This document shows positions 1-59,855 of a DNA stretch of 64,000 bases, in pieces. Location: assembly GCF_001435315.1 (NCBI RefSeq), contig NZ_AZGK01000008.1, forward strand, positions 1 to 64,000, given 5' to 3'. The notes under the pieces are model-generated. The model was not told where the DNA came from and ran no database searches. It worked only from the letters and a program-made list of their open reading frames with translations. The position numbers and the translations under genes were made by a program. How positions within the stretch are numbered: position 1 is the stretch's first letter; each line of letters starts with the position of its first letter. The DNA is from Lentilactobacillus parabuchneri DSM 5707 = NBRC 107865. GTDB lineage: Bacteria; Bacillota; Bacilli; Lactobacillales; Lactobacillaceae.

Positions 1-344
1 CAGTTTCGACGCAACCCCAGCGTCAAAACCGATGATCACATTAATGCTCCGAAGCTAAACGGTTTGACTCACACTCTAAACGTGCTCCACGAACCAACTT
101 TCTCCGCTTAATATAATCATCAGCTTCGCCGCAAGATCGCGCCGAAACTGATGATTACATTAATGCTCCGACGACCGCAAACGGAGTGCAGCGTCTAGTA
201 GCTGAACGGTTCGTTGCGCACTCTAAACGTGTTCCTCAAACCAGCTTCGTCCGCTTAATCCGATCATCAGTTTCGACGCAACCCCAGCGTCAAAACTGAT
301 GATCACATTAATGCTCCGAAGCTAAGCGGTTTGACTCACACTCT
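1..344 (-). repeat. Tandem copies of dispersed stop-codon-associated hairpin element (copy A)
   Basis: Read on the minus strand this begins with AGAGTGTGAGTCAAACC six bases after the stop codon of the osmoprotectant transporter gene. It holds about three successive modules and runs off the left edge of the window. Shared pieces are GGAGCATTAATG, GGATTAAGCGGA and AACACGTTT or GCACGTTT. Two inner hairpins are clear, with arms built around ATCATCAGTTT..GACGC and its complement. The same element occurs at 5142-5376, 14497-14796, 26115-26184 and 31991-32281. No coding sequence is seen here. Confidence 0.8.
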
Positions 345-350
345 CTTTTA

Positions 351-1877
351 TTATTTATTCAACAACCCATGTTCCTCCAAATAATCCTTCGCAACATCAG
401 CAGCGTTGCGGTGCTTAACCGTTACTTGATAGTTCATTTCCTGCATATCCGTTGTCGTGATCCTGTTGGCCAGTCGATCAAGCGAGCGGACCACTTTCGG
501 GTGGGTGGTCGCAAACTTTTTGGTCATCAACGGAGCGCCTTGGTATGGTGGAAAGAAGCTTCTCGAATCCTTCAAAACAACCAAGTGATATTCACGAATC
601 TGTGGATCAGTCGTGTAGGCGTCAGTCACGTCCACCCGGCCATCCGCCAGCGCGATGTACCTCAATGACGGCTCCATCGTTCGAACTGATTTAAGCTGAA
701 TATGATAGGCTTTCTGTAATCCTGGATAACCATCAGATTGCTGGTAGAAATCAGGATCAAAAGCACCCCGAAGCTGATTGCCCACCCGCCGCAGGTCAGC
801 GATAGTTTTGAGATGATACTTTTGAGCGGTCGATCGCCGGACCGTAATCGCATAGCCATTTTGATAGGCCATCGGCTTCAAATAAGTCATTTGAAATTCA
901 TTATTCAACGCTTGCTTAGCATCCAAATAAGCCTTGTGGGGGTTCGAATTGATCTCCTTGGGTGTCTTAACGAGTGATTGTAAAACAGTTCCCGTGAACT
1001 CTGGATAAACATCAATCTGACCATTTTTGAGGGCCTTGAACAAAAAGCTGGTGCCGCCAAAGTTTGGCTTCAGCTGTACTTTGGTTCGTGGGTTGTCCTG
1101 CTCTATCAGGTCCTTATACATATTAATCAAGATTTCAGGCTCACCGCCCATTTTCCCGGCAACTGTGATGGTTTGGCTGGGTTGCGCCAGAATTGACCAG
1201 CCGATCGCCCCACCACCAAGAATCAGCAGTGATAAAGTGCCAAAGATCAGTTTTTTGAAAGAAACCTTGGAAAGGATTTTAATCAGCCAACTTGCCAGCA
1301 ACGCTAAAATCGCTGATAATACGGCACCAATGATTAAGGCGTCATTATTATTGGTTTGAATTCCCAATAAAATATAGGTTCCCAGGCCACCACCTCCAAT
1401 CAAGGCAGCTAACGTCGCAGTCCCAATGACCAAAACCGTTGCGATTCGGATTCCCGACAAAATCATCGGCATCGCCAGTGGCAACGCAATTCGAAAGAGC
1501 TTAAAGCGTCTGGTTACCCCAAGCGCATCGGCAGCTTCCAACAATACTGGATCAATATTGGTTAACCCGGCATAGGTATTTTGAAAAATCGGCATAATGG
1601 CATACAACACCAATGCAATAATTGCGGGGACCGTTCCGATACCCACAAATGGGATCAAAATTCCCAATACCGCCAAGCTGGGAATCGTTTGAATAACACC
1701 GGCAACCTGAGAAACCAACTCACCGATTTTTGGGCGATTAACGAGGGCAACAGCCAACGGAATCGCAATGACAATGGTGATTAAAATTGCAATTAAGGAA
1801 ATTTCTACGTGTTGCCAGAGTGCTTGACCAATCGCCCCGGCATTTTTACTGGTGTAATTGATGACAGAATCAATCAT
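351..1877 (-). CDS. Glycine betaine/carnitine/choline-type ABC transporter, fused permease and substrate-binding protein
   Basis: A 508-residue fusion. Residues about 20-220 form a hydrophobic permease domain with a typical EAA loop (EAADALGVTRRFKLFRIALP). Residues about 235-508 form an OpuAC-type periplasmic-binding domain that starts after a membrane segment, so the receptor stays tethered outside the membrane. Lactobacilli and related Firmicutes commonly encode OpuC-type osmoprotectant systems in this fused form. The ATG overlaps the TGA of the upstream ATPase gene by one base (TGATG), so the two are translationally coupled. The likely role is uptake of compatible solutes under osmotic stress. 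The substrate cannot be assigned from sequence. A hairpin element follows six bases after the stop codon. Confidence 0.9.
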   Translation of the reverse strand: MIDSVINYTSKNAGAIGQALWQHVEISLIAILITIVIAIPLAVALVNRPKIGELVSQVAGVIQTIPSLAVLGILIPFVGIGTVPAIIALVLYAIMPIFQNTYAGLTNIDPVLLEAADALGVTRRFKLFRIALPLAMPMILSGIRIATVLVIGTATLAALIGGGGLGTYILLGIQTNNNDALIIGAVLSAILALLASWLIKILSKVSFKKLIFGTLSLLILGGGAIGWSILAQPSQTITVAGKMGGEPEILINMYKDLIEQDNPRTKVQLKPNFGGTSFLFKALKNGQIDVYPEFTGTVLQSLVKTPKEINSNPHKAYLDAKQALNNEFQMTYLKPMAYQNGYAITVRRSTAQKYHLKTIADLRRVGNQLRGAFDPDFYQQSDGYPGLQKAYHIQLKSVRTMEPSLRYIALADGRVDVTDAYTTDPQIREYHLVVLKDSRSFFPPYQGAPLMTKKFATTHPKVVRSLDRLANRITTTDMQEMNYQVTVKHRNAADVAKDYLEEHGLLNK

Positions 1878-5082: not shown

Positions 5083-5141
5083 GTATATGCTGTGCCTGTT
5101 ATTGTCTTTCAAAATGGTTTTGAGTTCACGCGTGTTTTTTT

Positions 5142-5376
5142 ACCTAGCCGAAACGTGCGAACCAAGCCAGTTTCCTCCGCTTAGTCCAACAACGGGGTTC
5201 AACGCAAACCCAGCGTTAAACCCCGTTGTTGCCAGTTGTTTTTCTTTTACATAGAAAAAACGTGCTCCGACGCAACTGACACTACGATCTAAGACGCTTT
5301 GATTCAAATCCAAAATCAGGATTTAAATCAAAGCTCCCTTAGTTCTCCGTGTCAAACCGTTGCTCGTCGCACTCTA
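5142..5376 (-). repeat. Dispersed stop-codon-associated hairpin element (copy B)
   Basis: On the minus strand it begins TAGAGTGCGACGAGCAACGG, and the first TAG is the stop codon of the uspA gene. A first hairpin has arms GCTTTGATTTAAATCC and GGATTTGAATCAAAGC. It is followed by CAGTTGCGTCGGAGCACGTTT, then a second hairpin with arms CAACAACGGGGTTTAACGC and its near-complement, then GGACTAAGCGGAGG. The layout matches copy C, with different but still complementary arms. Confidence 0.8.
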
Positions 5377-5808
5377 CTTCTTATAATCCACCACCATCAC
5401 ATTAACCGTCGAATGTCTGACGACATATGCTGTTGTCGATCCTAAGATGGCCCTGGATATGCCGTTTACACCCGATTTTCCAATCACAATTAGCGATGCA
5501 CCCATCTTTTCTGGTAGTTCCTTTGCAATTTGAATCTTGGGAACCCCAACTACGAAGTGGGTTTCGACCTTGGCGCCCTTTTTCTCCGCAATCTCTCTTG
5601 CATCATCTAAAATTTCCTCGCCACGTTCACGGAACGACTCCATAACATCCTGGCCCAGCGTGACCCCATACTGAACGTACCGTTGATCACTTGCCACCGA
5701 GACAATTTGCAACGTCGATCCAAACGTCTTTGCCAAATCAGCAGCTTCTTCGACCGCTCTCATCGCATTTTGACTACCATCAACCGGAACTAAAATTGTT
5801 TCAAACAT
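5374..5808 (-). CDS. uspA: Universal stress protein, UspA family
   Basis: A 144-residue single-domain Usp protein beginning MFETILVPVDGS. Near the C-terminus it has the nucleotide-binding pattern G-x2-G-x9-G-S (GKSGVNGISRAILGS), typical of the ATP-binding UspA type. A start 15 bases upstream is possible, but its ATG lies within the GGAGGTG ribosome-binding site that serves the ATG at 5808, so the shorter form is right. Usp proteins are small cytoplasmic stress proteins; the specific role here is unknown. The stop codon TAG is part of the adjacent repeat element. Confidence 0.9.
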   Translation of the reverse strand: MFETILVPVDGSQNAMRAVEEAADLAKTFGSTLQIVSVASDQRYVQYGVTLGQDVMESFRERGEEILDDAREIAEKKGAKVETHFVVGVPKIQIAKELPEKMGASLIVIGKSGVNGISRAILGSTTAYVVRHSTVNVMVVDYKK

Positions 5809-5886
5809 ATCCAACACCTCCATAATCTTCTATCTAAATTAATCTTACCATTCTGTGAAGTAATAAACATGAATCTAGTCTCAAAT

Positions 5887-6609: not shown

Positions 6610-7680
6610 ATGAAAGCAGTTCGCATTTATGGTGAAAAAGATATTCGGGTTGAAGACGTTTCAATTCCAGAACCTAAAGATGATCAAGTTCAAATTAAAG
6701 TTAAATATTGTGGAATTTGTGGAAGTGACCTTCATGCCTACCTCGAAGGCTGGGGCCTGCCAACCGTTCCATATCCACTAACCGGCAAAACCGTTCCCAT
6801 CACCTTAGGCCATGAGTTCTCAGGTGAAATTGTCAAAGTTGGAAAAGATGTCGATGACTTACAAGTTGGCGATCACGTGGCTGTTGAACCATTACTTGCC
6901 TGTGGAAAATGTGAAAACTGTCGGGCCGGAAACTACAACTTCTGTAACAAAGCAGTTTCAACTGATGGTGCCGGTAACTTCTTAGGCTTCTCAGAAGACG
7001 GTGGGATGGCTGAATTTGCCAACGTTCAAGGCGTATTTGCCCACAAGATGCCTGAAGACATGGACTTTGAATTAGGTGCTTTGGCAGAACCAACTGCTGT
7101 TGTTTACGAAGCCATTAAGAAGAGCCACTTACGTGAAGGTCAAAACGTTGCCGTGATGGGTGCCGGCCCAATCGGCTTATTGGAAGCTGTGTTAGCTAAA
7201 ATTGCTGGCGCCAACCACGTTTATATCGTTGATGTTTCCAAGGTTCGTTTGGATAAGGCCAAGGAATTAGGTATTGAAAACGCTTTGGATCCAAGCAAAG
7301 ACGACGTTGAAGCTATTATCAAGAAGGACTTGCCAAACGGCGTTGACATTACCTTCGAATGTGCGGGTGTTCAAGCAACCTTTGACTCCGCACTCAAGGT
7401 AACCAAACGAACAGGAATTATTCAAGTTGTTGCGCTGTACGCAAAGCCAGTAACCATGAACATGACTGATGACTTGATTATGCAGGGTAAGGACGTTATC
7501 ACGACTCTGTGCTACAACAATTCATTCCCTAACGTTTTAGGAATCATCGACAACCACAAAGACCTGTTTAAGAAAGTTGTTACCAAGAAAGTCAGCTTAG
7601 ACGATGCCCTCGAAGAAGGAATCAAGGCATTATCAACCGACAAATCACAAGTTAAGATTATGATTGATCCATCTCTTTAA
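6610..7680 (+). CDS. bdhA: Zinc-dependent medium-chain dehydrogenase, (R,R)-butanediol dehydrogenase type
   Basis: A 356-residue MDR-family enzyme. It has catalytic zinc ligands (CGICGSD near residue 37, GHEFSGE near 70), a structural zinc loop with four cysteines (CGKCENCRAGNYNFC), and a Rossmann motif GAGPIGLL near residue 180. It fits enzymes that interconvert acetoin and 2,3-butanediol with NAD(H); L-threonine or sorbitol dehydrogenase activity is a less likely alternative. An AGGAGG ribosome-binding site precedes the ATG. A cre site overlaps the promoter, fitting carbon-catabolite control of a pyruvate-overflow pathway. Single gene, followed by a strong terminator. Confidence 0.85.
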   Translation: MKAVRIYGEKDIRVEDVSIPEPKDDQVQIKVKYCGICGSDLHAYLEGWGLPTVPYPLTGKTVPITLGHEFSGEIVKVGKDVDDLQVGDHVAVEPLLACGKCENCRAGNYNFCNKAVSTDGAGNFLGFSEDGGMAEFANVQGVFAHKMPEDMDFELGALAEPTAVVYEAIKKSHLREGQNVAVMGAGPIGLLEAVLAKIAGANHVYIVDVSKVRLDKAKELGIENALDPSKDDVEAIIKKDLPNGVDITFECAGVQATFDSALKVTKRTGIIQVVALYAKPVTMNMTDDLIMQGKDVITTLCYNNSFPNVLGIIDNHKDLFKKVVTKKVSLDDALEEGIKALSTDKSQVKIMIDPSL

Positions 7681-12334: not shown

Positions 12335-12528
12335 AGTGAAGCCCCCTCAGGAATCATTTAAACAAATGTAACCATACGTTTAACGTCGAAAAATAGCTTG
12401 GAGAAAGTTGACATTCTCCACATTTATTTCTCATATTGAGTATACTAGATTACATAGAAATAGTTTCAAATAACGCTATTTAAATGTGTGCGGAAATCAC
12501 ATCACAATTCTACGAAGGAGGCTTTATT

Positions 12529-14496
12529 TTGAATATTTTTAAGGCAAATGCAGCAGATGGTGGTCAAGCAGACCAACCCACTGAAGATTCAATTGACAAG
12601 TCATTACTAAAAGACGATTTATATCAAGCCGTTAATGGTCGCTGGGAAAAGACCGCCGAGATTCCGGCTGATCATTCCTCGACTGGTGGCTTCATGGACC
12701 TCAACGACAATATTGATAAGCAATTAATGAGCGACCTCGATGACATCATTGAGGAAAAGAAACAATATGACGCCCCATTTTCAGAATTCTTGAAGCTCTA
12801 TGCACTCGCTCGCAACTATAAGAAGCGTGATGCCGATGGTGCCGATCCACTCAAGCCCTATTTGGAAAAAATCGAGAATATCACCAATTTTGATGATTTA
12901 AACGAACAATTGCCTGAGTTGGTTAAAGCCGGCTATCCGCTACCGTTTGGCTTCTGGGTTGAACCGGATATGAAAAACACCCAGGTCAACGCATTGTTTG
13001 CGTCGGTTCCAGGCTTATTCTTACCAGACCGGACTTACTATGAGAACAACAATCCGGCATATCAACAACTGATGCCGGTCTTCACCAAAATGGCCAGTCA
13101 ACTCTTGATTTTGGCTGATTACAGCAGCAGTGAAGCAGATGAGATTGTCGAATCCGCCAAGCGATTTGACGCCAAAATTGCCCCTAACGTGAAGTCAGCT
13201 GAAGAATCTGCCGACTACAGTAAAATGTACAACCCACAGAAGTTTGCCTACTTCTCAGAGTCCAGCTCTCACATTGACTTTATGAACCTGGCAGACGCGT
13301 TGTTTGGCCACGCGCCGGAGCAACTTATCGTGACCCAGCCGAAGTTCTACGAACGCTTTGATGGCCTGATTAACAGTGATACCTTCACCGACATGAAGAA
13401 TTGGATGCTGGTCAACACGGTTCGCTCAGCTTCAAGCTACCTGTCAGAAGAGTTCCGTCAGACCGGTTCTGTATTTAGCCGAGCCCTTTCCGGCAAGAAG
13501 GAAGCAACACCCCAAAAGAAAGCTGCTTTCTACCTCGCTGAAGGTATCTTTGGCCAAACGATTGGGGACTATTACGCCAAGAAATACTTTGGTCCAAAAG
13601 CCAAGGCGGACGTTGAGCACATGGTCAAAAACATGATCAACGTGTATAAGAACCGCCTCAGCAACAACACTTGGCTGGGTAAGGAAACCAGAGAAAAAGC
13701 AATCTTGAAGCTGGATAAATTAGCCCTTCAAGTGGGCTATCCGGATCACATCGACCAACTGGAATACAAATTTAAGGTGACGCCCGAAAATGATGGCGGG
13801 ACCCTGTTTGATAACATGTCCAAATTTGGGGAGATCACCATTGAAGATACGTTTGAGAAGCTGGGCAAACCAGTCGACCGGACGAAATGGGAAATGAGTG
13901 CGGCTACGGTAAACGCTTATTATGAACCATTTAAGAACATTATTGTCTTCCCAGCGGCAATCCTTCAGGCACCTTTCTATAGCTTGAAGCAGTCATCCAG
14001 CCAAAATTACGGTGGTATTGGTGCGGTTATCGCCCATGAAATTTCTCATGCATTTGATAATAATGGCTCGTTGTTTGATGAACTTGGAAACTTAAACAAT
14101 TGGTGGACGAAAGAAGACCATGAGTACTTCTCCAAGCTTGCCGATAAGATGATTAAAGAATTTGACGGCATCCCATTTGCGGGCGGCAGGGTCAATGGCA
14201 AGCTGACGGTGTCGGAAAACATTGCGGATGCGGGTGGTCTGAGCTGTGCCAACGAAGCGGCCAAAAATGAGGAAGATTATAATTTGTATGACTTCTTCAT
14301 CAATTGGGCCAAGGTATGGCGAATGAAGGCCACGGAACAGTACAAGCAGTTACTGCTAAATATAGATGTCCATGCCCCGGCAGAATTAAGGGCAAATGTC
14401 CAGGTCAAAAATCTGGATGATTTCTACAAAACTTTCGATGTCCAACCTGGTGACGGGATGTATATGGAACCGGGGGAAAGGGTGAAAATTTGGTAG
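12529..14496 (+). CDS. pepO: M13-family oligopeptidase PepO
   Basis: A 655-residue neprilysin-like zinc endopeptidase. The catalytic site HEISH (VIAHEISHAFDNNGSLF) and the third zinc ligand in SENIADAGGL are intact, and the substrate-binding block NAYYEP lies just before them. No signal peptide is seen, as for the cytoplasmic PepO of lactic acid bacteria, which trims casein-derived peptides. The best start is TTG at 12529, seven bases after GGAGG; an ATG 45 bases upstream lacks such a site. The TAG stop is followed directly by copy C of the hairpin element. Confidence 0.92.
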   Translation: MNIFKANAADGGQADQPTEDSIDKSLLKDDLYQAVNGRWEKTAEIPADHSSTGGFMDLNDNIDKQLMSDLDDIIEEKKQYDAPFSEFLKLYALARNYKKRDADGADPLKPYLEKIENITNFDDLNEQLPELVKAGYPLPFGFWVEPDMKNTQVNALFASVPGLFLPDRTYYENNNPAYQQLMPVFTKMASQLLILADYSSSEADEIVESAKRFDAKIAPNVKSAEESADYSKMYNPQKFAYFSESSSHIDFMNLADALFGHAPEQLIVTQPKFYERFDGLINSDTFTDMKNWMLVNTVRSASSYLSEEFRQTGSVFSRALSGKKEATPQKKAAFYLAEGIFGQTIGDYYAKKYFGPKAKADVEHMVKNMINVYKNRLSNNTWLGKETREKAILKLDKLALQVGYPDHIDQLEYKFKVTPENDGGTLFDNMSKFGEITIEDTFEKLGKPVDRTKWEMSAATVNAYYEPFKNIIVFPAAILQAPFYSLKQSSSQNYGGIGAVIAHEISHAFDNNGSLFDELGNLNNWWTKEDHEYFSKLADKMIKEFDGIPFAGGRVNGKLTVSENIADAGGLSCANEAAKNEEDYNLYDFFINWAKVWRMKATEQYKQLLLNIDVHAPAELRANVQVKNLDDFYKTFDVQPGDGMYMEPGERVKIW

Positions 14497-14796
14497 AGAG
14501 TGCGACGAGCAACGGGTGATGCGGTTTCTAAGAGAACTTTGACTGAAACCCTGGTTCTGGGTTTTAGTCAAAGTTTTCTTAGAAGTTAGCATCAGTTGCG
14601 TCGGAGCACGTTTCCACAAAATAACAGTGAACCTTAACCACGATTTGGATTTTAATCAAAGTGGCTTAGATCGCAGTGCCAGTTGCGTCGAAGCTGTCCT
14701 CAACCGTATATCGGACAACAGTTTTGACGCTGAACTTGCGTCAAAGCGGGTTATCGGATTAAGCGGAAGAATCTGGCTTGTGAAGCACGTTTCCAC
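14497..14796 (+). repeat. Dispersed stop-codon-associated hairpin element (copy C)
   Basis: Starts at the base after the pepO stop with AGAGTGCGACGAGCAACGG. A first hairpin has arms AACTTTGACTGAAACCC and GGGTTTTAGTCAAAGTT. It continues with AGTTGCGTCGGAGCACGTTTCC, then a second module with GACGC..GCGTC and GGATTAAGCGGA, ending GAAGCACGTTTCC. Orientation is with pepO. Compared with copy B the arm sequences differ but pairing is preserved. No gene is seen inside. Confidence 0.8.
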
Positions 14797-14820
14797 AATC
14801 TATATATGAATCCACAACTC

Positions 14821-14875
14821 AAAAAATAACAGCCAACGATGAACTTGTTGCTTCATCATTGACTGTTATTTCTTC
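14821..14875 (-). terminator. Intrinsic terminator of the 53-residue membrane protein gene
   Basis: AATAACAG..AACGATGAA pairs with TTCATCATT..CTGTTATT. On the minus strand a T-run follows. Confidence 0.7.
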
Positions 14876-24038: not shown

Positions 24039-24242
24039 CAGGATGCCACCTCCTCATATTAAACGACTGATTTGGACAAGTCCATCTTAAAATAAATGGT
24101 GACATAATTTTATCATATCGACAGCTAAATAAAACCTTTTGAACGAATCATTGATTTCTTACACCAAATTAGTGTTAAAATGACGCTTGCTATGCTAGTT
24201 TAAAGAGTGAGTATATTAATCAATATTTTGGGGGATTCATCG

Positions 24243-26030
24243 ATGCCAGATCATTCTAATAAACCACAAAAATTTAATTTAAAGACGTTTTTAACCCTCA
24301 TTAACCGGATTCACCCACGATACTGGCAACTGATCGCAGGCTTTTTGCTTGGCGTATTGGCGACCGCCATGCAACTGGCCGTTCCAGGAATTGCCAAGGG
24401 GATCATCAATTCAATCGGACATCACATGAACACTACGTTAATTGTCGGCGTGGTCCTTTTATTCCTATTAAGTACAATTATCGGTGCCTGTTCCGGAACC
24501 GTCTTGGGCTTTTTCGGTGAAGACGTAGTTTATAAGCTGCGAAAAACGCTTTGGAACAAGATTCTAAAATTACCAGTTCATTATTTTGATGAGACCCAGT
24601 CCGGTCAAATCACCTCCAGATTAGTCAATGATTCGACTCAGGTCAAGGAACTGTTGGCAAATTCCGTTCCAAAGACTGCCACTTCAATCATTCAACTCGT
24701 TGGGGCGATGGTCTTGATGATGATTATGGACTGGCGGATGACGATTATTATGTTCATTGCCATCCCACTTGTCCTCGTCTGCCTGCTACCAATTGTCCGC
24801 CAGTCGCACAAAATTGCCCGGGCCCGTCAAGATGCCTTGGCAGACCTTAACGGAAAAGCCGGTGAAATGCTGGGTGAAGTCCGCCTAGTTAAATCCTCAA
24901 CTGCCGAACCGCTTGAAAAGTCGGCTGGCGATCAACGCATGTTTCGCCTGTATCGGATTGGCCGTCGGGAAGCCATCTATGACTCAATCGCCGGTCCCGT
25001 CATGGGCATGGTGATGATGGCCATGGTACTGGGAATTTTGGCCTACGGTGCCATCCGGGTCCGTGAAGGTGCCATCGACATCGGGACCCTATTTTCATTT
25101 CTAATGTACTTGGTTCAACTGATCGGACCGTTCGCAATCCTCGGTCAATTTATGGCTGACGTCGCCAAAGCAAGTGGTTCGACCACCCGAATTCAAGCCT
25201 TGCTTCAAACACGCGAGGAAGATCAACAGTCTGGAAGCGATTTTGATATCAGCGGCCAAACGTTAAAAATGAGCCATGTCAGCTTTTCGTATGAAAAGGA
25301 CAAACCAATCCTCCACGACGTTTCATTTACCGCTCCTGCCAATTCCGTGATCGCCTTTGCCGGTCCGTCGGGTGGCGGAAAATCAACTATCTTCAGTCTT
25401 TTAGAACGCTTTTATCAGCCGGACAGTGGCCATATTATGATTGGCGATACCGAAGTAGACGATATCAAGCTTGGAAGCTGGCGGAATCAAATTGGGTTGG
25501 TTGGCCAAGACGCCGCAATCATGTCCGGCACCATCCGTTATAATTTGACCTATGGGCTCGATAAAACCTTTCAAGACGAACAACTTTGGCATGTTTTAGA
25601 TATGGCCTACGCAACCAAATTTGTCAAAGCCATGCCACACGGTCTCGACACTGAAGTGGGTGAACGCGGGATAAAAGTCTCCGGCGGGCAACGCCAACGC
25701 TTGGCTATTGCCAGAGCTTTCTTAAGAGATCCGAAGATTTTGATGCTTGATGAAGCCACTGCCAGCTTGGATTCCGAATCAGAAATGATGGTCCAACAAG
25801 CCCTCGACAAATTGATGGTGAACCGAACGACCTTAGTCATCGCCCACCGCCTCAGCACCATCACTGACGCGGATGAAATCTACTTCATCGAAAATGGTCG
25901 GGTCAGTGGTCACGGAACCCATAAACAGTTAGTCAAAAGTACGCCACTGTACCGAGAATACGTGGAAAACCAATTTTCAGAAGAAAAAACGCATCAGCCA
26001 ATTCGGACGGAAAAGCAAGCAACGTCTTGA
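24243..26030 (+). CDS. ABC exporter, fused membrane and ATPase domains (BmrA/LmrA-like)
   Basis: A 595-residue half-transporter: six membrane segments over residues about 20-300, then an ATPase with Walker A GPSGGGKST, Q-loop, signature VSGGQRQRLAIARAF, Walker B ILMLDEATASLD and H-loop AHRLST. All catalytic residues are canonical, so it probably works as a homodimer exporting drugs or lipids. ATG 24243 has GGGGGA seven bases upstream; an in-frame start 36 bases earlier lacks one. It is divergent from the acyltransferase/GT8 block. Confidence 0.9.
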   Translation: MPDHSNKPQKFNLKTFLTLINRIHPRYWQLIAGFLLGVLATAMQLAVPGIAKGIINSIGHHMNTTLIVGVVLLFLLSTIIGACSGTVLGFFGEDVVYKLRKTLWNKILKLPVHYFDETQSGQITSRLVNDSTQVKELLANSVPKTATSIIQLVGAMVLMMIMDWRMTIIMFIAIPLVLVCLLPIVRQSHKIARARQDALADLNGKAGEMLGEVRLVKSSTAEPLEKSAGDQRMFRLYRIGRREAIYDSIAGPVMGMVMMAMVLGILAYGAIRVREGAIDIGTLFSFLMYLVQLIGPFAILGQFMADVAKASGSTTRIQALLQTREEDQQSGSDFDISGQTLKMSHVSFSYEKDKPILHDVSFTAPANSVIAFAGPSGGGKSTIFSLLERFYQPDSGHIMIGDTEVDDIKLGSWRNQIGLVGQDAAIMSGTIRYNLTYGLDKTFQDEQLWHVLDMAYATKFVKAMPHGLDTEVGERGIKVSGGQRQRLAIARAFLRDPKILMLDEATASLDSESEMMVQQALDKLMVNRTTLVIAHRLSTITDADEIYFIENGRVSGHGTHKQLVKSTPLYREYVENQFSEEKTHQPIRTEKQATS

Positions 26031-26092: not shown

Positions 26093-26114
26093 CTGGTGAT
26101 TCCATATTATCTTG

Positions 26115-26184
26115 CCTAAACATGTTCCTCAAACCAGCTCCGTCCGCTTAATGCTCCGAAGCTATGCGGTTTAACTCGCACTCT
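26115..26184 (-). repeat. Dispersed stop-codon-associated hairpin element, short form (copy D)
   Basis: Minus strand: AGAGTGCGAGTTAAACCGC, then CTTCGGAGCATTAAGCGGACG and TTTGAGGAACATGTTT. It lacks the long central hairpin of the other copies, as if the inner arms had been deleted. It begins six bases after the stop codon of the GT8 gene. Confidence 0.7.
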
Positions 26185-26190
26185 GTTGTT

Positions 26191-27036
26191 TTATTTGGAT
26201 AAAACGGGCTCCGCCTGCAGCTTAGCCATTATCTCTTGATACTCATCCAAGATGTCATCATATTCGTGCAAATTCAGCTGAGAGTGGACCTTGTCGACTT
26301 CCCAGGGTTTGACCGAAACCGTATGAATAATCGGCCAAAATTTCCAACGAGTTGAAAAATGCTGGAACACCGTGTCCGGTTGAACATCCTGTTGCTCATT
26401 ATACTTCTCTGCCACGAACGCCTTATGCTTGGCCAACTTGTTCATGGCCGATTGATCAGGCATAATCATTGGCCGTTTGGCACAGTATGCCCGGCAGCGC
26501 GCCAATAGCTGATCTTGGCGAATCTGTTTAAGATTCATCAGCAGCATTCCGGAGTTAATGTAGTCAAACGGCCGTAGCTGATGATGGAAAAACCAGCGGC
26601 CATAATGATCAAGAACCCCTAGAAAATCTACCTTATCCAGCTCTTGATGGTAGAACGCTTCAAACGGTCGCCGACAAACGACATCCGCATCTAAATATAA
26701 AATCCGATCTGAGAACTGTGGTACTAAATCACTGTATAGTCTCAACATACTGTACGGCGTAAATAATGTATTAATATTGGCAGTTGGCAATTCCGCTTCA
26801 AACTTTTCGGTCATATCGATTTTAATAACGGCATTCCGGTTGTTCCCCTGCTTGGCCAGATCGTTTAAAAAGTCGATATGATCGTCACTCAACGCTTGAA
26901 ACTGACGGTGCTTATTGTGAAGGTGTCCGGTCATAATATAAATGTTCAGTGGTTCATGAGCGTGTTTGGTTAACGACAAGATTGAGATAATCAAGCCTTC
27001 AAACATGTTGTCGTCACCACAATATAAAATATCCAA
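26191..27036 (-). CDS. Glycosyltransferase family 8 protein
   Basis: A 281-residue GT8 enzyme starting MDILYCGDDNMFEGLIIS from TTG at 27036, which has GGGGGA upstream; longer in-frame starts have no ribosome-binding site and add non-homologous sequence. Key parts are the DxD in RILYLDADVVCRR, the block YINSGMLLMNLKQIR, and the terminal HTVSVKPWEVDKV. It is distinct in sequence from the GT8 at 22290-23240. The gene stands alone between the ABC exporter and codA. The acceptor is unknown. Confidence 0.85.
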   Translation of the reverse strand: MDILYCGDDNMFEGLIISILSLTKHAHEPLNIYIMTGHLHNKHRQFQALSDDHIDFLNDLAKQGNNRNAVIKIDMTEKFEAELPTANINTLFTPYSMLRLYSDLVPQFSDRILYLDADVVCRRPFEAFYHQELDKVDFLGVLDHYGRWFFHHQLRPFDYINSGMLLMNLKQIRQDQLLARCRAYCAKRPMIMPDQSAMNKLAKHKAFVAEKYNEQQDVQPDTVFQHFSTRWKFWPIIHTVSVKPWEVDKVHSQLNLHEYDDILDEYQEIMAKLQAEPVLSK

Positions 27037-27123
27037 CGTTGCTTCCCCCTGTCGTGCTACCCACTCAAAGTGTGTCATATTTGACGTAAAATGGCAACAA
27101 AAGAGCGTGTGCATGATGTGTGT

Positions 27124-27159
27124 AAAAAAGAGTCGGCACAACGGACGTTGTCCCAACTC
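27124..27159 (-). terminator. Intrinsic terminator after codA
   Basis: Minus strand GAGTTGGGACAACG pairs with CGTTGTGCCGACTC and is followed by TTTTTT. Confidence 0.8.
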
Positions 27160-28414: not shown

Positions 28415-28564
28415 GTCATTTATCCCTCACAATCAACGTATTTATTCATATTATAGTCTATTTTGGCAGCAAAGTTGGGCCCTTTCTGGTGAGTGTGCGA
28501 TAATACATATGTGATCCCTATTAAGACATTAGCATTTTTTTGCTAAGTGAAAGGTTCTGATTCA

Positions 28565-29902
28565 TTGAATTCAAAAACCAGATTGGCGTTACCGCAGATC
28601 TTGACGTTAGGTTTCCTGATTATTATTTTAGTGGGAACCTTTTTACTGTCGCTGCCAATCTCAAGTAAATCCGGGCATATGACCAGTTACATCAATGCCT
28701 TTTTCACGGCAACTTCCGCGACTTGTGTGACCGGAATGACGGTGGTCAACACCGCGCTTCATTGGAGTATCTTCGGTAAAATTGTGATCCTGATGCTGGT
28801 CGAAATTGGTGGTTTGGGCTTTATGACATTCGCCGTTCTACTGTTTGTGTTTATGCGCCGGAAGGTTGATTTGACCACCCAACTGCTAACCCAGCAGTCC
28901 CTTAACCTGCAATCATTTGCTAACACCAGCACGGTTGTTTTTCTGGTGGTTCGCATTTCCCTGGCGATTCAAGTTCTTGGGACCGGCCTGATTTTTATTG
29001 ATTTCTATCCCCGTTATGGGTTGGTTAAAGGCCTGGGCTATAGCATTTTTCACTCAATCAGTGCATTTTGTAATGCCGGCTTTGATTTGTTTGATAACAG
29101 TCTCGTGCGGTTTCAAACAGATCCCTACCTGCTGTTCGTATTGACGATTCTCATCATCTCCGGGTCCCTCGGCTTTCTGGTTTGGAAGGACATTCTTTTC
29201 TACCATGAAGATCATCGGTTAAGCCTGCACACTAAATTGGCGTTGACCACTTATCTGGGAATTATCGTTATCAGCTTTGTGGTCTATATGCTGACTGAGC
29301 GTAATTTCTCAGAGGGCAGTCATTTAACCATTTTCCAGCGGATTATGAACACCTGGTTTTTATCTGTGACACCAAGAACTGCCGGCTTCTACACCTTTCC
29401 AGTCACTCATATTTCCCTTGGTGGGGCATTTTTTACCATGATTTTGATGCTGATTGGTGGAACGCCCGGATCGACTGCCGGCGGGATTAAAACGACCACA
29501 GTGGGCATTCTTTTAATTCGAGTGTGGGCAACCCTCCGTGGCAAGCGGGACGCTACGTTTTGGGGGCGCCGATTCAGTGACGATAACGTTACCAGGTCTT
29601 TATCTCTGGTATTCTTGGTCGCCGTCGTCCTGTCGATTGCGACTCTGATTTTAACTTTCACGGAGACCATCCCCAAATCAGAAGGATTGGAATACATCAT
29701 GTTTGACGTCGTTTCAGCCTTTGGTACAACTGGATTTAGTCTGGGCTTGGTTGCGCATTTGAGTGTGATCGGCAAATTAATTTTCGCGGTGCTGATGTTC
29801 ATGGGTAGAGTGGGAATCTTTACGGTCATGTACTCATTGTTAACGTCAAAGCGACCAGAAGATGCCTTCAGATATCCGGAAGAAAATGTGATGATTGGCT
29901 AA
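28565..29902 (+). CDS. ktrB: Potassium uptake channel subunit KtrB/TrkH family
   Basis: A 445-residue membrane protein with the four selectivity-filter loops of the KtrB/TrkH family: ATCVTGM, AFCNAGFD, TPRTAGFY and AFGTTGFS. The gating region is marked by GGTPGSTAGGIKTTT. It works with the regulatory KtrA subunit encoded 90 bases downstream to import K+, probably driven by Na+ or membrane potential. The start is TTG at 28565, ten bases after AAAGG; a GTG six codons earlier has no site. Confidence 0.92.
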   Translation: MNSKTRLALPQILTLGFLIIILVGTFLLSLPISSKSGHMTSYINAFFTATSATCVTGMTVVNTALHWSIFGKIVILMLVEIGGLGFMTFAVLLFVFMRRKVDLTTQLLTQQSLNLQSFANTSTVVFLVVRISLAIQVLGTGLIFIDFYPRYGLVKGLGYSIFHSISAFCNAGFDLFDNSLVRFQTDPYLLFVLTILIISGSLGFLVWKDILFYHEDHRLSLHTKLALTTYLGIIVISFVVYMLTERNFSEGSHLTIFQRIMNTWFLSVTPRTAGFYTFPVTHISLGGAFFTMILMLIGGTPGSTAGGIKTTTVGILLIRVWATLRGKRDATFWGRRFSDDNVTRSLSLVFLVAVVLSIATLILTFTETIPKSEGLEYIMFDVVSAFGTTGFSLGLVAHLSVIGKLIFAVLMFMGRVGIFTVMYSLLTSKRPEDAFRYPEENVMIG

Positions 29903-31990: not shown

Positions 31991-32281
31991 TAGCCAAAAC
32001 TCTCGAGCCAGCTTTCTCCGCTTAGTCCGCCATGTACCCCTTGCCACCTAGCCAAAACGTGCTCCCCAGAGCAGCAACCTGCACCTTCACTGCTACTTAG
32101 CCGAAATGTGCTTCTCGAGCCAGGCCCCTCCGCTTAGTCTGCCACGCACCACTGCTACATAGTCGAAACGTGCTGTCCAGAGCAGCAACCTGCACCTAAG
32201 CCAACTTTGGGTGAAATCAAACTCGATTTCACCCAAAGCCAGCTTAGGCTCCGGTTGCTAACCGCTCTGGTCCGCACTCTA
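31991..32281 (-). repeat. Dispersed stop-codon-associated hairpin element (copy E)
   Basis: Minus strand begins TAGAGTGCGGACCAGAGCGG, and its TAG is the stop codon of the antiporter gene. The central hairpin has arms CTTTGGGTGAAATC and GATTTCACCCAAAG. Several partial modules follow (GCAGGTTGCTGCTCTGGACAGCACGTTTCG, a form of GGAGCACGTTT, and GACTAAGCGGAG twice). Arms differ from copies B and C yet still pair. No gene is seen in 31877-32278. Confidence 0.78.
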
Positions 32282-34270
32282 ATCCCTGAACACCTCCACA
32301 TTCTGCAGATAAGTCATCTCGTCCGTTGAGATTCTTGACTGGAGCTTTTCCGCCAGGGCCGAATCTATTTTTCCCGTCTGTAAGGAATCCTGGATCAATT
32401 CGTATTCACTATGGAAAGCTCTCATGAACATTTGGTAGACGATATTCATATCGACATCTTCGCCGTTAATTCTTCTGTGCCGAGTCCGATAGAATCGCTT
32501 CACCATATTGGTTTCAACGCCATTGTCACCCTGCTGGGTCTTTAGGAACGCCATCACCGCTTCGAAGCCGGCCTTTTCAATCGGCAAAATATCTTCCCCG
32601 TGCTTTTCAAACTGCTCACGCCAATAAATTTCTTCAAGCGCGACCGGCGCTGTCAAAAACGCCTCCTGCGCGCGGTTCAAATCCTTATACATCGTGCCAA
32701 TGTGGAGACTGAACCGAATTCTTAATAAGACATTCTTCCATATTTTTTCATCTGCCGAAAAATTGCTTAAATTTAAAAATTTTGTGTAGTAAGTTAATTC
32801 GTCGTCGGTTATTTTTCCGTCATCATGTAATTTCTGAGCCGCCTTCAATTCAACTTGATGGCTTTCACTCATTAATTGGCGGCGCAAATGTAAGTTTGGT
32901 GTACTGTCCAGAACCAGTTGCTGCTGAAGCGAATCAATTACAATCTGGGCCTCCGCCGGGTGTTCTTTTTCCTTCAAAAGGTCACTAATGGCCGCTTGGA
33001 TCATCCGCTTCACCCAACGATAACGTGGCTTTCGCTGATCTTGACTCGGCAAAATAATTGGCACAAAGATTGTCGGCATAATCAAGCTGGTTAAAATAAC
33101 CACCGCGGCCACAAAAATCATCATTCCTCGAAAGGCAAATGGCTGCCCATTGACCGTGTTAGGCATCGAGAAAGCAAGTGACAAGGTAATTGTCCCATTG
33201 GCGCCGCTAAGTGCCATGACGAGGCTGTCACGCCACTCATGCTTCGACTTAACCCGTCGCTTCAACATGTAGCGACTCCAAGCCAACCGTAAAGCACCTT
33301 TGGCAAGATAAACACCAATCCCAATCAACACTAATTTCAAAATATTCCAATTTGGATTGGGTGCCTGATGAAGTGCCTCAACGACTTCCGGCAGCGACAG
33401 CCCCAAGAGAACAAACACAACCCCGGACAGCGTGCCGGACACGATTTCCCAAACATTGCTGGTAACCAGCTGCATTCGAGAAGACGTTAACCGCAGCTTA
33501 TCTCTTTCGGATCCCTGAACCAGCCCTGCGGCAACTACCGCCAAGATGCCTGATAGCAATAATTTTTCCGCAAGTAAATAAATCAAAAACGGCGAAAGCA
33601 GCTGAATTAAGACCATAATAATGGGTGTATCGTCGTTGTAGCGGATTAAAAATAGCCGCGTGCTGACAATCACCACACCCATCAAGCTCCCGAAAAGCAG
33701 GCCGCCCAAGAATTCCCACAGGAACATGCCAACTGCCAGCTTCAATGAGAAGGTCCCGGAAATAAAGGCAGTCAAAGATAAATCAAACAACACAATGCCC
33801 GCTGCGTCATTAAACAACGATTCATGCTGCAAAATCCCCGCCTGCTCTTCAGCAATTGGGTTGGCTTCAAAAATCGAATTAACCGCAGAGGCGTCAGTTG
33901 GCGTGACAATCGCCAGCAATGCAAAGCATAAAGTCAGCGGCAAAACCGCCATGGCCAAGTGCAACCCCGCCCCAACGACTAACACGGTGACCAATACCAG
34001 CCCCACCGCAAGCGATAAGATATTGGTGATTGAGCGGCCAATCCAAAATCGTGAGCTGTTTTGGGCTTCATTAAACAGCATCGGGGCAATAATCGCCAGT
34101 GCAAAGGTAGACGGGTCTAACTGAAAGTTGCGGTAAATCGGCAATGCCGCCAGCATCCCACCTAAAATAATCAGGAAAAACGGCAGCGGAATAAACGACA
34201 CGTGTCGTGCCAAAATATTTGCCAACACGACTGCCGCCAAGATAATGGTCAGTAAGAGTACCATGTCCAT
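32279..34270 (-). CDS. Na+/H+ antiporter, CPA1 family, with long cytoplasmic tail
   Basis: A 663-residue protein. Residues about 5-415 hold 12 or so membrane segments with the CPA1 core motif TPTDASAVNSIFE and the downstream FNDAAGIVLFDLSL. The last 240 residues are hydrophilic and helical, as in NhaP/NhaK-type antiporters with cytoplasmic regulatory tails. It exchanges Na+ or K+ for protons. The ATG at 34270 has GAGGGG eight bases upstream; a GTG three codons earlier overlaps that site. The stop codon is the first TAG of hairpin-element copy E. Confidence 0.88.
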   Translation of the reverse strand: MDMVLLLTIILAAVVLANILARHVSFIPLPFFLIILGGMLAALPIYRNFQLDPSTFALAIIAPMLFNEAQNSSRFWIGRSITNILSLAVGLVLVTVLVVGAGLHLAMAVLPLTLCFALLAIVTPTDASAVNSIFEANPIAEEQAGILQHESLFNDAAGIVLFDLSLTAFISGTFSLKLAVGMFLWEFLGGLLFGSLMGVVIVSTRLFLIRYNDDTPIIMVLIQLLSPFLIYLLAEKLLLSGILAVVAAGLVQGSERDKLRLTSSRMQLVTSNVWEIVSGTLSGVVFVLLGLSLPEVVEALHQAPNPNWNILKLVLIGIGVYLAKGALRLAWSRYMLKRRVKSKHEWRDSLVMALSGANGTITLSLAFSMPNTVNGQPFAFRGMMIFVAAVVILTSLIMPTIFVPIILPSQDQRKPRYRWVKRMIQAAISDLLKEKEHPAEAQIVIDSLQQQLVLDSTPNLHLRRQLMSESHQVELKAAQKLHDDGKITDDELTYYTKFLNLSNFSADEKIWKNVLLRIRFSLHIGTMYKDLNRAQEAFLTAPVALEEIYWREQFEKHGEDILPIEKAGFEAVMAFLKTQQGDNGVETNMVKRFYRTRHRRINGEDVDMNIVYQMFMRAFHSEYELIQDSLQTGKIDSALAEKLQSRISTDEMTYLQNVEVFRD

Positions 34271-34323
34271 TTCATTCACCCCTCTGCTTAATATCGATTA
34301 TAGTTTATCACTGATTGCAGCAA

Positions 34324-38108: not shown

Positions 38109-38272
38109 TTGACAATGACTAAGGATGTTGGTATATTATAGCTAATGTGTTTAAGGGTTCGATTTTCAAAGGTATTTGTTTTATAGTTTTATGAAATAAC
38201 TCCTTGGAATCACTGCAACTTGATACATTAAATATAATTATGCGCTTAAAGCGCAAGGAGGTTTCATATATT
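38109..38272 (+). promoter_or_regulatory. Cold-shock gene promoter and long 5' leader
   Basis: TTGACA (38109-38114), 17-bp spacer, TATATT (38132-38137), then a leader of about 129 bases. The leader contains the palindrome GCGCTTAAAGCGC just before the AAGGAGG ribosome-binding site. Long structured leaders that control translation with temperature are typical of csp genes. Confidence 0.75.
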
Positions 38273-38476
38273 ATGAAACAAGGTACTGTTAAATGGTTCA
38301 ACGCTGATAAAGGTTATGGCTTCATTACTACTGACGATGGTGACGTATTTGTTCACTTCTCAGCTATCAACAAAGACGGCTTCAAGTCATTAGATGAAGG
38401 CCAAAAAGTTACTCTTGACGTTGAAGACAGCGACCGTGGACCACAAGCTGCTAACGTTACACCAGTTGAAGACTAA
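38273..38476 (+). CDS. csp: Cold-shock protein (CspA family)
   Basis: A 67-residue single cold-shock domain. RNA-binding motifs are intact: KGYGFIT (RNP1) and VFVHFS (RNP2), beginning [19 protein letters not shown]. It is an RNA chaperone that binds single-stranded nucleic acid. ATG 38273 has AAGGAGG upstream; the in-frame extension to 38204 belongs to the untranslated leader. A terminator follows. Confidence 0.95.
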
Positions 38477-38495
38477 TTTATTAGTTTAAACTTTT

Positions 38496-38533
38496 AAAAG
38501 AACCAGCAATTTCGGTTGCTGGTTCTTTTTTTG
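38496..38533 (+). terminator. Intrinsic terminator after csp
   Basis: AAAAGAACCAGCAA and TTGCTGGTTCTTTT make a near-perfect hairpin followed by a T-run. Confidence 0.9.
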
Positions 38534-45404: not shown

Positions 45405-47291
45405 CTAATCAAATGAAACGTCATCTGAGAATTGACTGTTGTACAAGTCGGCATAGAAACCATTTTTGGCAAGCAGCTCATTATGCGTTCCGGTTTCAAC
45501 AACTGCTCCATGATTCATCACAATAATGTTGTCTGCATTTTGAATTGTCGACAATCTGTGAGCCACGACAAAGCTGGTCCGATTTTCCAACAACTGACTC
45601 ATAGCGTGCTGGATCTGAACTTCGGTCCGAGTATCAACGGAACTGGTGGCCTCATCCAAAATCAGAATTTCAGGGTTCGCCACAAAGGCGCGGGCAATCG
45701 TAATTAGTTGACGCTGTCCTTGAGAAATATTGGAAGCAGACTCATTTAAGATGGTATCGTAGCCCTTTGGCAGCTTACGGACGAATTCATCCACGTGAGC
45801 AGCTTTAGCGGCTTCAATGATTTCTTCTTTGGAAGCATCTTCGCGGCCGTATTTAATGTTGTCATAAATCGACCCCGTGAACAGCCAGGTATCTTGGAGA
45901 ACCATCGCAAAGTGAGACCGCAATGCTTCTCGATCCAAATCTCTGGTGTCGACACCCTTGAGGCGAATACTACCGCCCTTAACGTCGTAGAAGCGCTCCA
46001 ACAGGTTAATGATGGTTGTCTTACCAGCACCGGTCGGACCGACGATAGCGACCTGCTGGCCACGTTTAACGGCAAGGTTATAATCCTTCATCAACAACTC
46101 GTCATCGTTGTAGCCAAACTGAACGTGTTCCAACTCGACCAAATTATCGGTATTTTCTTCAATCGGTCGATTTTGCTTGGTATTCTTCATTTCTTCTTCA
46201 TCAATCACTTCAAACACCCGCTCAGCTGAAGCGATCGTCGACTGAATGGTGTTCATCAAGTTGGCTAACTGAGAAATTGGTTGTGAAAACTGGTTGGTAT
46301 ACTGCAAGAAGGCCTGCACGTTACCAAGGGTGACCGTTCCGTTCGCAACCTGGATGCCACCAACAACGGCAACGAAGACGTAACCAATGTTATTTAAGAA
46401 GATCATCATGGGCATGATAATCCCTGAAATAAATTGGGCTTTCCAAGCAGCTTGATAATATTTCTTATTTTGAACTTCAAACTGGTCAATCGTGTCCTGT
46501 TCCTTATTAAAACTCTTGAGGACGATTTGGCCAGCGTAGTTTTCTTCCACTTGGTTGTTTAATAAGCCAAGACTCTTCTGTTGGGCCGCGAAATACTTCT
46601 GGGATCGTGGTGCAATCACGCCGACAATTAACAAGCTCAACGGAATCGTTACCAATGCAATCAAGGTCAATTTCCAACTAATCGTAAACATCATCCACAA
46701 AGTTCCAATGAAGGTCACAAAAGACGTAACCGCCTGGGTAAGACTTTGTTGGAGGGTGCTGGCGATATTATCCATATCGTTAACCGCCCGGCTCATGACA
46801 TCACCGTTACTGTGCGTATCGTAGTATTGGATGGGCACCAGGCGCATCTTTTGTTTCATTTGCCGCCGTAATTTATAGACCGTATTCTGTGAAATTCGGG
46901 TCATAATATACTGTTGCAAGAAGCTGAAGACCGCAGAAGCCAAATACATCACAAGAACGATGAGAATAATTTGGACAATCTTTTGATAGTTAATCGGAAG
47001 TGAAGCCACGCTAAAGCCGGCTTTTTGTTGGGCATTTCCCTTCATCAAGCCCTTAAAGATTTCAGTCGTTGCTTCTCCTAAAATCTTCGGGGTTCGAATC
47101 TGGAAGATAACACTGATAATGGCAAAGGCCAGAACCAGGATTAAACCGACCAGGCGATCTTGCATGTAATCCAGCAGTCGCTTAGTGGTTCCCCAAAAGT
47201 TATGGGGTTTTTCGACAACTCCCTGAAAACCGCCATGGCCACCATGATTTTGGTTGCCGGCAGGTTGTGGTGCCGTATCTTTTTCAGCCAT
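45405..47291 (-). CDS. Heterodimeric ABC exporter subunit with canonical Walker B (LmrD-like)
   Basis: A 628-residue half-transporter: N-terminal His/Gly-rich leader, six membrane segments to about 340, and an ATPase with Walker A GPTGAGKTT, signature SQGQRQ (degenerate against LSGGQ), Walker B ILILDEATSSVD with catalytic Glu, and H-loop VVAHRLST. Its ATG overlaps the TAA of the partner gene by one base. In heterodimeric exporters such as LmrCD or BmrCD one of the two ATP sites is degenerate, as seen here. Likely multidrug or lipid export. Confidence 0.9.
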   Translation of the reverse strand: MAEKDTAPQPAGNQNHGGHGGFQGVVEKPHNFWGTTKRLLDYMQDRLVGLILVLAFAIISVIFQIRTPKILGEATTEIFKGLMKGNAQQKAGFSVASLPINYQKIVQIILIVLVMYLASAVFSFLQQYIMTRISQNTVYKLRRQMKQKMRLVPIQYYDTHSNGDVMSRAVNDMDNIASTLQQSLTQAVTSFVTFIGTLWMMFTISWKLTLIALVTIPLSLLIVGVIAPRSQKYFAAQQKSLGLLNNQVEENYAGQIVLKSFNKEQDTIDQFEVQNKKYYQAAWKAQFISGIIMPMMIFLNNIGYVFVAVVGGIQVANGTVTLGNVQAFLQYTNQFSQPISQLANLMNTIQSTIASAERVFEVIDEEEMKNTKQNRPIEENTDNLVELEHVQFGYNDDELLMKDYNLAVKRGQQVAIVGPTGAGKTTIINLLERFYDVKGGSIRLKGVDTRDLDREALRSHFAMVLQDTWLFTGSIYDNIKYGREDASKEEIIEAAKAAHVDEFVRKLPKGYDTILNESASNISQGQRQLITIARAFVANPEILILDEATSSVDTRTEVQIQHAMSQLLENRTSFVVAHRLSTIQNADNIIVMNHGAVVETGTHNELLAKNGFYADLYNSQFSDDVSFD

Positions 47292-52449: not shown

Positions 52450-52748
52450 AAAAAATGCGTCCTTCGAATCAACTTCGAAGGGCGCATTTTAAAATAGATG
52501 CACGGTACCACCTTGATTTATCGAATTAAACCATTCAATTCAATTCGATCTTAACGAACACAATTTATAAAATTGTAGTCGCTGGCCTTTTAATGGTGGC
52601 ATCCAGTAAACACTCAGGGATCGCATCTACAGCTCCAAGCCTACTTTCAATCATGAATTGCAATTTCCTTTCACCAACCGGAAACTCTCTAAATGCAATT
52701 AATAATTTACTCCCGCTTTTCATCGCTTTTCTCAACGTTTTCTAATTG
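52450..52748 (-). promoter_or_regulatory. T-box leader, predicted Val (GUA) specifier
   Basis: Complete leader of about 300 bases. The T-box AAGGTGGTACCGTG lies at 52501-52514 and the terminator hairpin AAATGCG.CCTTCGAA / TTCGAAGG.CGCATTTTTT at 52450-52489. Stem I has its conserved GGGAGTAA and AGAGAG..GGTTGGTG segments. The specifier loop reads TTGAAAGTAGGCTTGG. Aligned with the known glyQS loop (GAAA-GGC-A), the specifier is GUA (52644-52642), Val. Uncharged tRNA-Val should thus turn on the lyase/MFS operon. Confidence 0.85.
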
Positions 52749-59602: not shown

Positions 59603-59850
59603 TACAAAAAAATCGCCCTTCTGTCACTAAGACAAAAGGACGACAATTGGCCGCGGTACCACCTTCATAGATACTTTTCGTATCCACTCGTTGCTTGCTT
59701 TAACGGACAAGTCCGAAACCGGCTAACTTGCGCTCACCGATTTATGGGTAAAGCATGAAAGTCACAATCTACAATTTCACTACCATCTCTCAGTCGCCGA
59801 ATGGATTTCCTGTTCGTGAAGCTTGTAGAAAACTTCTTTCAAATTGATAG
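59603..59850 (-). promoter_or_regulatory. T-box leader of panE, short non-standard Stem I
   Basis: T-box GAAGGTGGTACCGCGG at 59651-59666, stem III GATAC..GTATC before it, and terminator hairpin TCGTCCTTTTGTC / GACAGAAGGGCGA followed by seven T. The 5' part folds as GAAAG, TCTACAA and TTCAC helices with their partners, but lacks the AGTA and GGTTGGTG segments of a classic Stem I. The specifier is therefore not assigned. Confidence 0.8.
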
Positions 59851-59855
59851 TTCGT

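Follow-up and report, generated by a model that had tools for sequence, protein, structure and literature searches.

The window, that is, the whole stretch of 64,000 nucleotides analysed here (positions 1-64000 of contig C49, in a 2.57 Mb genome of 50 contigs), contains five loci at which copies of a folded repeat of about 120 letters, without a reading frame, lie directly behind a gene. The five genes are as follows, the gap being the distance between the stop codon's end and AGAGTG, the start of the repeat:

351..1877, minus strand: ORF (Pfam OpuAC/permease), TAA stop at 351-353, gap +6
5374..5823, minus strand: uspA (Pfam Usp), TAG stop at 5374-5376 formed by a T and the AG of AGAGTG, gap -2
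12484..14496, plus strand: ORF (Pfam peptidase M13), TAG stop at 14494-14496, gap 0
26191..27156, minus strand: ORF (Pfam glycosyltransferase 8), TAA stop, gap +6
32279..34279, minus strand: Na+/H+ exchanger gene (Pfam Na+/H+ exchanger), TAG stop at 32279-32281, gap -2

The copies of the repeat at these loci, the first of which (1-344) is a three-copy array running into the contig start, are:

225..344, minus strand: class A copy, first of the array, its head at +6 nt from the TAA of ORF 351..1877
78..224, minus strand: class A copy with a nested insert module, second of the array
1..77, minus strand: class A copy, third of the array, truncated by the contig start
5244..5375, minus strand: class B copy with tail, providing the TAG stop of uspA
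5137..5243, minus strand: partial second copy behind the uspA copy, with a class A type hairpin and a CACGTTT end (R1 match 5137-5285, 51 bits)
14497..14627, plus strand: class B copy with tail, head immediately 3' of the TAG of ORF 12484..14496
14628..14806, plus strand: degenerate further copies with CACGTTT at the end, then a terminator-like hairpin, seen by eye, at about 14826-14873
26104..26184, minus strand: short class A copy with tail and without the long hairpin, head +6 nt from the TAA of ORF 26191..27156
32152..32280, minus strand: third class of element, providing the TAG stop of the Na+/H+ exchanger gene
31991..32151, minus strand: degenerate further copies behind the copy at 32152..32280, with direct repeats D1 and D9

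The initial annotation had described five loci with shared segments, an AGAGTGYG end that faces the 3' end of a gene in each, and stop codons of uspA and the Na+/H+ antiporter supplied by the element itself. The five loci proved real: at every one of them the AGAGTGYG end is placed -2 to +6 nt from the stop of a gene on the same strand, and both TAGs, two of the five stops, are indeed element-supplied. Also present in the window are T-box leader matches at 52475-52732 and 59633-59851 (both minus strand, the second below gathering score) and a cspA thermoregulator match at 38165-38529 (plus strand).

Two main classes of the repeat, A and B, were distinguished and 16 copies of each were aligned. 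Both start with AGAGTGYG and finish with CRCACGTTT, followed by a tail resembling YNNCTAGRTAAMAG; this conserved, CTAGRTAA-like tail is recognisable on 30 of 63 scored ends in the same genome and on 10 of 18 ends from other genera. Some copies carry short nested modules, others have no long hairpin, and a third class is found at 32152-32280. The consensus folds of the two classes contain 43 and 37 pairs, with changes on both sides in 22 and 19 of these, respectively, and paired cells make up 97.8% and 96.5% of the two alignments, a share favoured by deriving the structures from the alignments on which they are scored. None of 500 shuffled alignments matched the observed value on any measure. 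The closing stem, GUGY/RCAC, covaries, the fourth pair in class B being C-G in 8 of 16 copies and U-A in 7. The sense-strand fold has 63 G-U cells vs 8 C-A cells; because this fold had been chosen for the sense strand, the reverse complements were folded too, and the fold optimised for the other strand gave 10 G-U and 27 C-A cells. Consensus energies were -51.1 (sense) vs -40.8 (reverse complement) and -40.6 (sense) vs -25.7. The folding strand is the strand that runs with the docked gene.

With respect to features of MITEs, the repeat ends have only GTGYG/CRCAC in common, and a possible TAA or TAAG target-site repeat was seen at one site, without confirmation at the second site examined. Searches of Rfam with the window and 11 copy-bearing loci returned, among the matches listed, none on the element at gathering score, and at the gathering threshold the matches listed for 15 further loci were only T-box, tRNA, cobalamin and TPP. 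An Rfam family was rejected as the identity of the repeat, the sub-threshold microRNA and BTnc060 matches being regarded as hairpin noise; a phage origin was rejected because the phage collection yielded no match.

Two BLAST and two covariance-model searches of the whole genome yielded 111 non-overlapping copies in 80 arrays. Nine arrays were removed before counting on the basis of a head sequence (CAAAAGG, CAACAGG, ACAAGAGG or CAATCGG) that marks a look-alike hairpin family; one of those removed, C23:101907, lies at +4 from a stop codon and could genuinely belong to the repeat. Since our home-made gene caller missed at least one real gene (26191..27156), the docking test took all ORFs of at least 50 codons. 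Heads of 51 of the 71 remaining arrays lie -14 to +8 nt from the stop of a same-strand ORF, vs 210 of 4000 random intergenic positions in random orientation, which rules out chance as the sole cause. Tail ends face an opposite-strand stop in 4 of 71 arrays (9 of 71 within 45 nt). Among the docked heads, 20 have a gap of -2, two of -1 and 10 of 0, and none lies beyond +6. Docked stops are TAG in 31 of 51 cases vs 58 of 253 control genes. Three further arrays (C7:20420, C9:39800 and C10:17384) proved to be docked on inspection. Position and orientation relative to genes are therefore not random genome-wide, as heads dock far above chance and tails do not; the five-out-of-five rule seen in the window does not hold throughout the genome, where 54 of 71 arrays follow it and the other 17 break it.

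The codons just upstream of docked elements are rich in G. In the last nine codons, the fraction of third positions occupied by G is 0.44 in 49 docked genes vs 0.23 in 253 controls, and the G-C excess of the gene end over the gene body is 0.169 in docked vs 0.050 in control genes (Mann-Whitney p = 6e-8). Downstream flanks are A- and C-rich and T-poor. A G excess at -30 to -16 is also found in undocked arrays (n = 11). In a comparison of species, values are high for docked exchanger genes and low for most undocked ones, but the docked uspA of relative G013 has a value of 0.06. The upstream bias may come from target preference, mutation or selection. Pairing of the G-rich upstream with the A/C-rich downstream flank was rejected, the cognate duplex energy of -16.2 (n = 33) being no better than the non-cognate one of -17.0 (n = 384). 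Hypermutation of upstream codons after insertion found no support as raised divergence in a small sample, the difference rate being 0.25 at docked ends vs 0.33 at controls (five genomes with only 24 comparable synonymous sites; four of six changes were to G). Within the source genome, it is the final 9 to 15 codons ahead of docked elements that show the G bias.

In control genes, a terminator-like hairpin begins at a median of about 32 nt past the stop. Among docked arrays 27 of 51 are followed by such a hairpin, as are 102 of 182 control genes; the element thus seems to have been added ahead of the native terminator.

Matches to the R2 query occur in 18 of 24 genomes of the genus, at 1 to 133 per genome, and, with filters stricter than those of the genus search, in 64 of 251 sampled Lactobacillaceae genomes (17 of 40 genera) and in 21 of 395 sampled genomes of the order (17 Lactobacillaceae and four in one other family, f5). 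Eleven of 20 chosen copies from other genera lie -2 to +5 from a stop. Stretches of five relatives that are syntenic gave 35 matches, 20 of them at -23 to +7 from a stop, but only one of the eight copies found in relative G006 is at a stop. Nine copies from family f5 have the AGAGTGYG and CACGTTT ends in common, and three of the nine lie at -1 to +4 from a stop, with most others behind another copy.

Gene ends with and without the element were compared in up to 24 species at three of the window's genes, those of UspA, the exchanger and the M13 peptidase. These proteins mostly have the same end in either state, apart from uspA of G022 and G009, which is shortened or changed. For 25 docked genes orthologues were present in the fetched stretches, and 18 of these genes had an element-free orthologue. 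This comparison of orthologous loci, which the initial annotation had put forward as a check, gave by eye a protein end at the same residue in 12 of the 18; the remaining six are C49_1, slightly different in a variable end, and five that are shortened or changed. In eight of the 12 same-end genes, TAA in the relative corresponds to TAG in the source genome. The stops of 6610..7680 and 45405..47291 are filled in G013 only and empty in the window, and the stop of 28547..29902 bears different classes in four relatives and none in the window; one stop codon can thus bear different element classes in different species. When the right-hand junctions of 19 pairs were aligned, seven gave no meaningful alignment and one (C34_19158 vs G001) showed homology resuming directly behind the native stop; with 18 of the 19 empty sequences not aligning right from the stop, loss-free exact insertion is seen once only.

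A horA-like ABC transporter gene on brewery plasmids (L359:772-2523) ends inside an element, exactly like the related genes of G001 and G015. Its relative in the window (24207-26030, plus strand) lacks the element and has a longer C-terminus of its own. The plasmid gene thus seems to travel with its element.

We lean towards a small structured interspersed repeat, mobile or formerly so, that inserts at the ends of coding sequences and then serves as a structured 3'UTR. Insertion would place AGAGTGYG at the stop codon with the sense strand codirectional with the gene, and the inserted repeat would become the first part of the 3'UTR, composed of the closing stem GUGY/RCAC, at least one covarying stem together with a long hairpin, and a single-stranded conserved tail. 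The element would be transcribed together with the gene and probably retained because its compact structure right past the stop shields the 3' region of the mRNA from exonucleases, or is at least harmless. Position, orientation, covariation, the fold of the sense strand and the filled and empty orthologous stops are its observed basis, and they favour a repeat that is gained and lost at stop codons and acts as RNA, in one transcript with the gene. That it protects the 3' region of the mRNA is suggested by analogy with REP and with a finding on Efa that its authors present as preliminary (PMC1590033). The initial annotation had offered a mobile element or a 3'-UTR module: the filled and empty stops fit present or past mobility and the sense strand folds, but the stop rule is not strict. 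Counting against our reading are the 17 undocked arrays, the single docked copy among eight in G006 and the terminator-like hairpins that a loose scan flagged within the element.

A purely parasitic repeat, which inserts broadly and survives only at safe gene edges with neither host function nor stop targeting, seems to us somewhat unlikely, and is supported by the places at which the exceptions lie (17 undocked arrays, 13 with at least 60 bits and four weaker). In 10 of the 13 stronger exceptions the head points towards another edge, the 5' side of a divergent gene whose called start is 61 to 392 nt away, and in four of the ten (C1:12540, C34:18183, C23:169670 and C47:97592) a -35-like hexamer was seen by eye about 12-13 nt from the head; another exception, C47:82447, sits behind a terminator-like hairpin. 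Two convergent copies lie inside, and split, a T-box-like leader (L161:2341-2846, in C23) that scores 62 of 93 bits, under the gathering cut-off of the family. The shortened or changed C-termini in five of 18 genes fit such a parasite, as does the view, in the available part of the BOX study, that BOX is parasitic (PMC3049150). A tolerance filter accounts for the lack of insertions deep in genes but not for the +6 limit, since about 30 nt are free before the terminator, nor for the one-sidedness; tolerance alone gives no reason for tails not docking or for 20 of 51 heads at exactly -2.

DNA transposition into a short target common at gene ends (e.g. TA or NAG), in a REP or IS200/IS605-like single-strand mode, is decidedly unlikely. 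It would agree with the better folding of one strand, with the base 5' of AGAGTG, a T in 24 of 67 heads and a G in another 21, and with left flanks that are C-poor and G-rich even in undocked arrays; the empty sites, however, are TAA, TAG or TGA with varying neighbours, and a two-letter target alone cannot select in-frame stops. That the element is mainly a transcription terminator is very improbable, for although strong hairpins lie directly past the stop and a loose scan, run with no shuffled control, found terminator-like hairpins within the element itself for 37 of the 51 docked arrays, the conserved end (CACGTTT and CTAGRTAA) has no long T run, short copies such as 26104-26184 have no long hairpin, and separate terminator-like hairpins follow docked arrays as often as they follow controls.

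Because DNA-level processes are blind to reading frame, yet 32 of 51 heads lie at -2, -1 or 0, docking might operate via translation, with the repeat inserted at, or persisting only at, the site of ribosome termination; we regard this as a speculative and unlikely route. For example, element RNA could join the mRNA at the stop codon and return to DNA, or the closing stem might have to sit inside the terminating ribosome to work.

Among described systems, BOX of Streptococcus pneumoniae is by description the closest for stop supply, and the trait shared here is a structured interspersed repeat able to encode the stop of the upstream gene. As far as the available text of the BOX study goes, 36 coding sequences have a BOX-encoded stop with no clear truncation, and BOX is likewise a small structured intergenic repeat without transposase, modular, with tandem units and more than 100 copies (PMC3049150). 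The same text describes one transcribed BOX between the trp T-boxes of S. pneumoniae (PMC3049150), to which the T-box-like leader split by two convergent copies may be compared. In BOX the distance to the nearest gene decays gradually, with modest enrichment between convergent genes (PMC3049150, available text), whereas docking here is one-sided and within a few nt, which by description sets the repeat apart.

The Efa or Efa-1 repeats of Enterococcus faecalis, in the accessible portions of two reports, are about 163 nt long with tens of copies and a double-hairpin fold, prefer sites near the 3' ends of coding sequences, and have been suggested to stabilise mRNA (PMC1590033, PMC2267715). On these partial descriptions, Efa-1 is near to the present repeat in size, fold and location. 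Location near the 3' ends of coding sequences and a multi-hairpin fold are the Efa-type traits present here. EFAR, which we take to be the same repeats, replaces stem-loops; here, unlike in EFAR, the native protein end is mostly retained and terminators persist. Enterobacterial REP/BIME are palindromic repeats that lie behind genes, are transcribed and are regarded as protecting the 3' ends of mRNAs; we know of no stop-codon rule for REP, and REP units are shorter than the present repeat. Integron attC sites are structured, gene-oriented and directly behind stop codons, whereas the present repeat accompanies dispersed chromosomal genes rather than cassettes and forms tandem copies without genes between them.

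The suggestion that no described family follows this rule therefore needs qualifying, since stop supply is known in BOX (PMC3049150) and 3'-end preference in Efa (PMC1590033), both according to the available parts of the papers. What looks new is the one-sided docking of near-nucleotide precision, together with the preference for G in the codons immediately 5' of the element. A literature search found no description of the repeat family in lactobacilli, which is weak evidence of absence as it covered open-licence papers. Small structured repeats are usually viewed as randomly scattered parasites under selective filtering, and landing in one orientation within a few nt of stops, in many genera, offers a natural test between targeting and selection as RNA. 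It also follows that the repeat determines the stop codon (TAG in place of TAA) and the 3'UTR for many genes of these food bacteria.

The look-alike hairpin family (GGAGTGTGCCAAAAGG, GACTGGGRCAATAGGCG) lies behind genes at C1:298211, C12:152899, C34:142204, C50:9816 and other places in the source genome (G000), mostly 10-41 nt from the stop, and also at L272:7664-7796 and L275:2356-2487. At least one of its copies has a GCAAGATAAAAG-type tail, as in the main repeat.
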